Shown here: piece by piece, positions 7,142 through 9,274 of the stretch
Layout: every line of letters starts with the position of its first letter
Numbering within the stretch: the stretch's first letter is position 1
Assembly: GCA_029940175.1 (NCBI GenBank)
Contig: JAOZRM010000004.1
Coordinates: forward strand, 1 to 36,383
Direction of reading: 5' to 3'
DNA: 36,383 bases
DNA from: Candidatus Sabulitectum sp.
GTDB lineage: Bacteria; Fermentibacterota; Fermentibacteria; Fermentibacterales; JCC-6
Translations under genes and position numbers: made by a program
Notes under the pieces: model-generated
What the model was told of the DNA's origin: nothing
What the model saw: only the letters and a program-made list of their open reading frames with translations
The model's database searches: none

Positions 7142-8569
7142 ATGCTTTCCCTTTACAACACAAAAACCAGACAGAAGCAGGAATTTACTCCACTCGATCC
7201 TCCGTTTGTTGGTATGTATGTCTGTGGTCCTACAGTTTACGGTCACAGCCATCTTGGGCATGGAAAAAGTTACGTAAGCTTTGATGTGCTCCTGCGATAT
7301 CTCAGATACCTTGATTACAAAGTAAGATATGTTCAGAACATAACCGATGTGGGGCATCTCACCGATAATGCCGATTCCGGTGTGGATAAGTTGCAGAAGC
7401 AGGCTAAACTCGAGAAACTTGAACCAATGGAAATAGCGGAAAAATATACTGCAAGTTATTTCCATGACATGGATATTCTCGGCAACCTGAGGCCGGACAT
7501 ATCTCCACGAGCCAGTGGTCACATTCCTGAGCAGATTGAGCTAGTAAAAACTCTGATTGAAAAAGGCTACGCCTATCAGGCAGGCGGTAACGTTTATTTC
7601 GATGTTTCCTCTTTTCCGGATTACGGCAAACTCAGCGGCAGAATCGGTGATGACCAGAGAAGCGGCACCCGTGTCTGCATAGCGGATGATAAGCGCGACC
7701 CCAGAGACTTTGCCCTGTGGCTGGAAGCAGGTCAGGATCACATTCTCGGGTGGAAAAGCCCCTGGGGCCGGGGATATCCCGGCTGGCACCTTGAATGTTC
7801 TGCAATGGCCATGCGGTATCTTGGTGAAACAATTGATATTCATGGTGGAGGTCTTGATAACTCATTCCCACACCATGAATGTGAAATAGCCCAGTCAACG
7901 GCAGCTACAGGTAAGGAATTCGTCAGATTCTGGATGCACAACAACATGGTAACTGTAGACGGTAGAAAAATGGGAAAGAGTCTTGGCAATTTCACGCTGC
8001 TTAGAGACCTTTTTCAGCGGTGGGATCCAATGGTTGTAAGGCTCTACATTCTCAGGAGTCATTACCGAAGTCCACTGGACTTTTCCGATGAGGGGCTTGC
8101 GGGGGCCAGGAGCGGCCTTGAAAGGCTCATGTCCCTGAGGTCCAGGCTGGGTGACCATGAAGCCGGGGCGTCCTCACAGGCAGCTACAGAGCTTGTAGAG
8201 AAGACAGAGCAGGAATTCAAGAAATTCATGGACGATGATCTGAACACCCCGGGAGCGCTTGCAGCCATCTTTGACTTTGTCCGTGCTTGTAATACTCTTC
8301 TAGAGGCAAAAATCAAGGATGCGGATAAACATCTCATGGCAGCTCTCATGGACAGTCTGGTTACTGATGTTCTCGGTATAGAGCTTGCATCAGGCGGAAG
8401 CAGCGGCTCATCGGAAGACTTGTGCAGGATACTTGGAGAGCTCAGAGGTTATCTCAGGAAGAACAAACTTTTCGCTGAGGCAGACAAGTTGCGGGATGAT
8501 CTTTCGGAAGCAGGATTTTCTGTCCGTGATTTTCCCGGTGGTGTCAGTGAGGTAACACCGGATATCTAA
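7142..8569 (+). CDS. cysS: Cysteine--tRNA ligase
   Basis: YVCGPTVYGHSHLGHGKSYVSFDVLLRYL, DIHGGGLDNSFPHHECEIAQ, KMGKSLGNF. Confidence 0.97.
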   Translation: MLSLYNTKTRQKQEFTPLDPPFVGMYVCGPTVYGHSHLGHGKSYVSFDVLLRYLRYLDYKVRYVQNITDVGHLTDNADSGVDKLQKQAKLEKLEPMEIAEKYTASYFHDMDILGNLRPDISPRASGHIPEQIELVKTLIEKGYAYQAGGNVYFDVSSFPDYGKLSGRIGDDQRSGTRVCIADDKRDPRDFALWLEAGQDHILGWKSPWGRGYPGWHLECSAMAMRYLGETIDIHGGGLDNSFPHHECEIAQSTAATGKEFVRFWMHNNMVTVDGRKMGKSLGNFTLLRDLFQRWDPMVVRLYILRSHYRSPLDFSDEGLAGARSGLERLMSLRSRLGDHEAGASSQAATELVEKTEQEFKKFMDDDLNTPGALAAIFDFVRACNTLLEAKIKDADKHLMAALMDSLVTDVLGIELASGGSSGSSEDLCRILGELRGYLRKNKLFAEADKLRDDLSEAGFSVRDFPGGVSEVTPDI

Positions 8570-8577
8570 TTTGGAAT

Positions 8578-8619
8578 AACCTCCTTTCAAAGACTGTATC
8601 ACAGTAAAGAAAGGAGGTT
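8578..8619 (+). promoter_or_regulatory. SD-sequestering hairpin in the leader of the TonB-like gene
   Basis: Perfect 11-bp stem AACCTCCTTTC (8578-8588) / GAAAGGAGGTT (8609-8619) with inner ACTGT-ATC-ACAGT stem (8593-8605). The right arm contains the SD AAAGGAGGT, 5 nt before ATG 8624. Confidence 0.75.
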
Positions 8620-8623
8620 CCCG

Positions 8624-9274
8624 ATGCTACGTACACGCACAAATGGAATGGGAATGGAGATCGGTCTTCTTGTGGGTCTCCTGTTTGTTAACATTCTTTT
8701 TCAGTTTATCCCCGGTACAGAACTTGGAAGACTTTCCACGAGAACCATGGATGATGTTATGGAGGCTGTGGATGCCTATCTTCCCTACGATTCTTCTGTG
8801 GAAGATAAGCAGGATGAAGTGATCGAGGAGAACATTGCCATTGAAGAGCAGCTTCAGGAGGTTATTGAGCAGGTGACTCCGGATGTGACTATTTCGCTCA
8901 GTACGGATACAGTGGGATTGAGTACAGTGGAGACCATTGAAAATTTTTCAGGTGGTGGCACTGGAAACAACGAAATTGGTCCTCCGGGCTTTATGCCTGC
9001 GGAAGTTTTCCCCAACTGTACTTTCATGCCCCCACCGGACTATCCGGAGATAGCCCGACTTGCGGGAGTGGAGGGTGTAGTAACTCTCTGGGTCTACATC
9101 GACAGCGATGGCATGGTTCAGGACATACAACTGATGAATCCAAGTGGTGCTTCAGCTCTGGATAATGCAGCCCTGGCAGCTGCTATAAATACCCGCTGGA
9201 CCAGCGCACGGAACAATGGATTGGCAGTGGGAGTCTGGACCACTTTGACCTACAACTTTTCCCTTTCCGACTGA
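8624..9274 (+). CDS. TonB-family energy transducer-like protein with acidic linker
   Basis: N-terminal TM segment; C-terminal PPPDYPEIARLAGVEGVVTLWVYIDSDGMVQDIQLMNPSGASALDNAAL is TonB C-terminal domain-like. Confidence 0.82.
   Translation: MLRTRTNGMGMEIGLLVGLLFVNILFQFIPGTELGRLSTRTMDDVMEAVDAYLPYDSSVEDKQDEVIEENIAIEEQLQEVIEQVTPDVTISLSTDTVGLSTVETIENFSGGGTGNNEIGPPGFMPAEVFPNCTFMPPPDYPEIARLAGVEGVVTLWVYIDSDGMVQDIQLMNPSGASALDNAALAAAINTRWTSARNNGLAVGVWTTLTYNFSLSD

Follow-up and report, generated by a model that had tools for sequence, protein, structure and literature searches.

A candidate ECF-like promoter nested in a Shine–Dalgarno-masking hairpin between cysS and a TonB-like gene in Candidatus Sabulitectum

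In a member of the genus Candidatus Sabulitectum (Fermentibacterota), an uncultured bacterium from sediment, the gap separating cysS from a gene for a TonB-like protein contains a hairpin that covers the Shine–Dalgarno sequence (SD) of the latter, conserved across the genus with an arm that slides between species, and two sequence blocks kept at a fixed spacing. The best explanation of this arrangement, to which we assign a probability of roughly two in three, is translational insulation of an ECF-like internal promoter nested in the hairpin. An alternative-sigma promoter of this type would occupy the 5' half and the loop of the hairpin. Transcripts initiated from it, near positions 8607–8609, would not carry the left arm and would leave the SD exposed, since the start lies downstream of that arm; transcripts reading through from cysS would carry both arms and form the hairpin, with the SD hidden in it. 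Synthesis of the TonB-like protein would then depend on the firing of its own promoter alone, irrespective of the transcription of the cysS operon. The promoter identity of the blocks, the start site, the occurrence of read-through and the block of translation by the hairpin are what we infer from the sequence.

The SD-masking hairpin and its conservation

The features of the locus, numbered along the window (the whole stretch of 36,383 nucleotides that was analysed), are as follows.

7142–8569, + strand: cysS, cysteinyl-tRNA synthetase (Pfam tRNA-synt_1e, 9.5e-110, and DALR_2), with the stop codon TAA at 8567–8569; it adjoins the 5' side of the TonB-like orthologue in 12/12 cases.
8573–8578, + strand: GGAATA, -35-like element; GGAAY in 12/12 orthologues at a constant distance from TGTATYA, with the same spacing before a second gene in about 11 species.
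8578–8588, + strand: left arm AACCTCCTTTC (anti-SD), within the putative promoter spacer; pairs with 8609–8619, the pairing being found in 12/12 species.
8593–8597, + strand: ACTGT, 5' half of the inner stem, from the folds; two pairs are changed on both sides across species.
8596–8601, + strand: GTATCA, -10-like element, lying in the loop of the hairpin; GTATYA in 12/12 orthologues, with spacing enrichment.
8601–8605, + strand: ACAGT, 3' half of the inner stem, from the folds and cross-species pair changes.
8607–8609, + strand: predicted transcription start of the internal promoter, placed 6–8 nt downstream of the -10-like element.
8609–8619, + strand: right arm GAAAGGAGGTT holding the SD (GGAGG, 8613–8617), from the pairing and the 16S 3' end of congener L122.
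8624–9274, + strand: TonB-like protein of 216 aa (TonB_C at residues 136–214, Pfam PF03544, 9.5e-18), starting with ATG at 8624 after a gap of 54 nt.

The stem and the inner ACTGT/ACAGT extension described in an earlier sequence-only reading are correctly placed, and all 11 of the 11 pairs between AACCTCCTTTC and GAAAGGAGGTT, over the SD of ATG 8624, are of the Watson–Crick type. The 121-nt leader folds at -33.5 kcal/mol (z -2.37; 4 of 200 shuffled sequences fold equally well). The pairing strength of the arm is equalled by only 7 of 3000 real 17-mers drawn from upstream regions of the genus and by none of 3000 shuffles of its own letters. The predicted accessibility of the SD in the read-through RNA is 0.0001–0.013 in 11 of the 12 species, compared with 0.23 as the median of 122 genes of congener G008 having the same SD; the exception is L011, in which GGAGG retains a predicted accessibility of 0.40 and the start codon is paired instead. 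For the RNA expected from the gene's own promoter, modelled with the 5' end within about 8605–8610 and the left arm absent, the predicted values are 0.54–0.96 in 12/12 species on the assumption of a start 4–8 nt after the -10 element. The masking of the SD proposed earlier is well supported, and it holds genus-wide: the arm covers five of the five GGAGG bases in 11 of 12 orthologues, and in L011 three of the five plus two bases of the start codon. Scans of the gap found neither a terminator-like site between cysS and the TonB-like gene nor a sigma-70 promoter.

The comparison covers 13 genomes of the genus, several of them incomplete, and the counts given here are not independent because the species are related. 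The orthologue is present in 12 of the 13, in every case directly 3' of cysS with a gap of 53–58 nt; the 11 species other than that of the window were taken without selection for the stem. In most of these genomes there is a second TonB-like paralogue, which lies behind an exbD/tolR-type gene and has an ordinary SD without a masking leader. In the tree the cysS-linked orphan set is separate from the exbD-linked copies (support for the orphans 100/99). The branches of the orphan set are also longer than those of the exbD/tolR-operon set (8624–9274 of the window and L074–L092 for the two sets together).

The SD core GGAGG is invariant in all 12 orthologues. The sequence of the left arm is variable (CCTCCTTTC, CCTTCTTTC, CTTCCTTTC, CCTTCTTCC, TCTCCTTCTC, CGCCCCTTCTTTC and ACTTCGTACCT), the pairing being retained throughout, and the position of the arm slides within the spacer (columns 1–11, 2–15, 4–16 and 3–13). 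For each species, 1 to 66 of 3000 real upstream 17-mers do as well as the arm (0.03–2.2% for the other 11 species), the weakest arms being those of L003 and L008, which about 2% of random 17-mers equal. The most telling pair is that of the sister species L010 and L011, which have nearly identical proteins and yet differ in both arms. The L011 arm pairs with another target (ACTTCGTACCT/AGGTGCGAAGT) than that of its closest relative, which implies that both arms have changed together; each sister's own arm pairs with its leader at -13.2 (L010) and -18.3 kcal/mol (L011), and the L011 arm combined with the L010 leader yields only -6.9. When the arms were permuted among the species, the cognate combinations were outscored in 53 of 20,000 permutations, by a statistic that ignores kinship.

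Compensatory change, which the sequence-only reading had named among the checks on the stem, is seen in the double change between L010 and L011; in a single common register the covariation is modest. In that register 85.9% of the cells are paired (24 of 500 shuffles score as high) and two pairs are changed on both sides (45 of 500 shuffles), most of the changes being C to U opposite a G of the constrained SD. Such a modest signal follows from the fact that the SD side cannot change and that the arms slide.

The left arm had also been read as a copy of the 3' end of 16S rRNA. The assembly of the window contains no 16S gene, and that of congener L122 was used, which ends in CTGGATCACCTCCTTTCTAAGG; the left arm with its flanks does resemble it, so the likeness is real, but it is not an independent fact. 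Anything complementary to GAAAGGAGG resembles an anti-SD, which makes the likeness a by-product, and the TTGGA that matches in addition is part of the conserved element GGAATA. A copy of the 16S end was rejected as an explanation of the arm, since the arms of relatives (CCTTCTTCC, CTTCCTTTC, ACTTCGTACCT) depart from 16S while the pairing stays.

The conserved blocks as a candidate internal promoter

The blocks GGAAY and TGTATYA (GGTATCA in L009) are nearly invariant and are separated by exactly 17 nt in 12/12 orthologues; they flank the left arm, which sits in this 17-nt spacer. ECF sigma factors recognise promoters with a GGAAC-type -35 and a GTC- or GTA-type -10 element. The candidate promoter of the locus is similar in having GGAATA at -35 and GTATCA at -10, at a fixed spacing, and in the position of such sites before genes for envelope or exported proteins. 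A transcription start within the hairpin, by which the masking arm is left out of the RNA, has the best support among the possibilities raised by the sequence-only reading; the weak sigma-70-type pair TTGGAA/TGTATC that it had invoked is better replaced by the ECF-type GGAATA/GTATCA.

A strict motif search of the window's own genome returned this site alone, so the spacing test was run on long contigs of two congeners. In their 1.2 Mb, exact GGAATA...GTATCA occurs five times at the two relevant spacings versus three times at 15 other spacings taken together; restricted to regions upstream of genes, the numbers are five and zero, one of the five being the present gene, so that the enrichment rests on a handful of sites. 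The matches precede genes for lipoproteins and for other exported or membrane proteins. Each genome has about 7–10 Sigma70_r2 genes, and no convincing site was found among the sigma genes sampled in four genomes when a matching autoregulatory promoter motif was sought.

The second gene with the conserved blocks, P0004 (G008:C41:157364-158281 and orthologues, L204–L214), has GGAATA-N16/17-GTAT(C/A)A upstream in about 11 species (ten orthologues by script, one of them with a spacer shorter by 1 nt, and L210 by eye). It is likely, judging from these sites, to be a member of the same alternative-sigma regulon. Its product is a predicted exported protein (EWGVLTW...) unrelated to TonB, and the motif overlaps the stop codon of the upstream co-directional gene. 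The spacer of P0004 is variable and pairs with the SD at -4 to -9 kcal/mol, which is about chance, versus -11 to -19 kcal/mol at the TonB-like locus. The blocks therefore do not need the hairpin, which is an addition at the TonB-like gene, and masking is not a general feature of the regulon.

Two other loci were noted in G008. A possible second masked site, before the lipoprotein gene P0003 (G008:C41 near 39679), was rejected, as the motif is not conserved and a conserved TTGACA-type block is found instead. Upstream of P0003 (near 39606; L217–L230) nearly all members of the genus have a conserved TTTTTTGACA...TTGATTAAACTATG block, apparently a promoter of the housekeeping type to judge by its sequence, and a long conserved leader. 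A minus-strand gene of G008:C19 (start at 136777, counted on the reverse complement of the opening 320 kb; L124–L139) has another apparently strongly masked SD, ATATTACCTCCT...AGGAGGAATAT, located directly before the TTG start of a membrane-protein-like frame.

A member of the orphan clade was also found in another genus (L014, g5; 1370–1500, reverse orientation). It lies not behind cysS but behind a gene that we call MazG-like by eye from its sequence, whose stop codon is inside GGAATAG, and it has an arm over the SD (CGTACCTC/GAGGTGCG); the -10-like site is a poor match and is overlapped by the masking arm. Since the upstream gene is unrelated, the element goes with the TonB-like gene and not with cysS. 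This arrangement suggests that the element belongs to the TonB-like gene and may guard it against whatever gene lies upstream.

Other explanations of the element

The position of the gene directly 3' of cysS in 12/12 species, with a gap of 53–58 nt and an SD that is predicted to be masked in the bicistronic RNA, would also be expected if the ribosomes finishing cysS opened the hairpin, so that production of the TonB-like protein keeps pace with that of CysS. We regard such translational coupling, which was among the earlier suggestions, as unlikely: in 12/12 species the stop codon of cysS lies 8–13 nt before the arm, which keeps translating ribosomes out of the stem, and one that is terminating would, as estimated from the usual footprints, reach just the first 2–3 nt of the stem. 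Coupling also leaves the fixed GGAAY/TGTATYA blocks unexplained, and a similar element accompanies the orphan copy behind an unrelated gene in the other genus. An SD-masking hairpin with a conserved loop sequence is, on the other hand, what a sensing RNA might look like, whether a thermometer, a ligand switch or a protein-gated switch opening the stem under some condition, but for this locus we consider it improbable. When folded at several temperatures, as proposed earlier for a thermometer, the modelled stem of the window does not open even at 75 °C (predicted SD accessibility 0.000 at 45–55 °C and 0.003 at 75 °C); a ligand-gated switch is disfavoured by the lack of any Rfam match up to E=5 in 8400–8800 and by the 54-nt leader, which leaves little room for an aptamer. 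The occurrence of the loop sequence at another gene without the stem points to a DNA element instead.

A DNA element could equally be an operator, with a dimeric repressor bound to the inverted repeats (ACTGTATCACAGT, AACCTCCTTTC...GAAAGGAGGTT) over the promoter, and the inner ACTGT-ATC-ACAGT is indeed palindromic and overlaps the -10 element. We find this very unlikely, as L011 and L012 have lost the inner palindrome, the outer arm shifts its position, and the changes in that arm keep the RNA pairs as G-U (UG in 4/12 at one pair), which is ill-suited to a DNA palindrome; the second locus, P0004, has no repeat. Finally, a pyrimidine-rich spacer might match the SD through shared ancestry and have no role. 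The relatedness of the species, the weak arms of L003 and L008 and the modest covariation in the common register agree with such drift, but the pairing is kept 12/12 in a spacer otherwise free to vary, the near-identical proteins of L010 and L011 are preceded by arms that differ on both sides, and the orphan gene of another genus has an arm as well. Chance, too, is hence a poor candidate, and the insulated internal promoter is the reading that we prefer.

Relation to known systems and significance

With these blocks, Fermentibacterota have a first candidate alternative-sigma promoter. The arrangement has a signature that can be searched for in any genome, namely a promoter spacer complementary to the downstream SD, located behind a co-directional gene without a terminator. 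It is tempting, though doubtful, to suppose that bacterial chromosomes regularly apply this device, known from phages, to envelope genes located behind housekeeping genes. Were this so, selection would fix the promoter blocks and keep the spacer complementary to whichever SD follows, and an alternative-sigma gene could directly adjoin a constitutive gene that has no terminator and yet stay silent until its sigma factor acts.

The closest parallel is found in bacteriophage T4, in which the SD of gene e (lysozyme), soc, gene 49 and I-TevI is buried by the folding of long transcripts started upstream; a late promoter encoded by the 5' strand of that structure produces short transcripts, which are devoid of this strand and are translated; for gene e a 100-fold effect was reported (PMC3014915). 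As in gene e, the folds and predicted accessibilities in 12 species have the SD or the start codon sequestered in the long RNA, and the short RNA from the gene's own promoter is predicted to have an open SD (0.54–0.96). The counterpart of the T4 promoter within the 5' strand would here be the pair of -35/-10-like blocks with fixed spacing, present also at a second gene, with a predicted start site. T4 relies on a phage late sigma factor and a temporal switch, whereas here the gene is chromosomal, the promoter is ECF-like and the upstream gene is a housekeeping one that encodes a tRNA synthetase; the T4 case was shown experimentally, and the present locus is known from its sequence. Our literature search found no chromosomal read-through isoforms with a hidden SD, which is weak evidence, as subscription journals were mostly outside its coverage.

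ROSE and fourU RNA thermometers likewise place the SD in a hairpin; the present element is not a member of these families, having a perfect 11-bp stem with GC pairs that is predicted to be closed at 75 °C. Fold-back inhibition of the IS10 and IS50 transposases follows the logic of the insulated internal promoter, the read-through RNA hiding the SD in a hairpin and the RNA from the transposase promoter, which starts inside it, escaping. Those are mobile elements guarding against fortuitous activation, unlike the gene described here, which is resident and has the same neighbour throughout one genus. The principle of masking the SD in read-through RNA, best documented in phages and present also in insertion sequences, would have here a chromosomal example that extends over a whole genus, its promoter staying in place and its anti-SD arm sliding. 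In such an example a stretch of 50 bp may carry an alternative promoter together with a block to translation of the read-through RNA.
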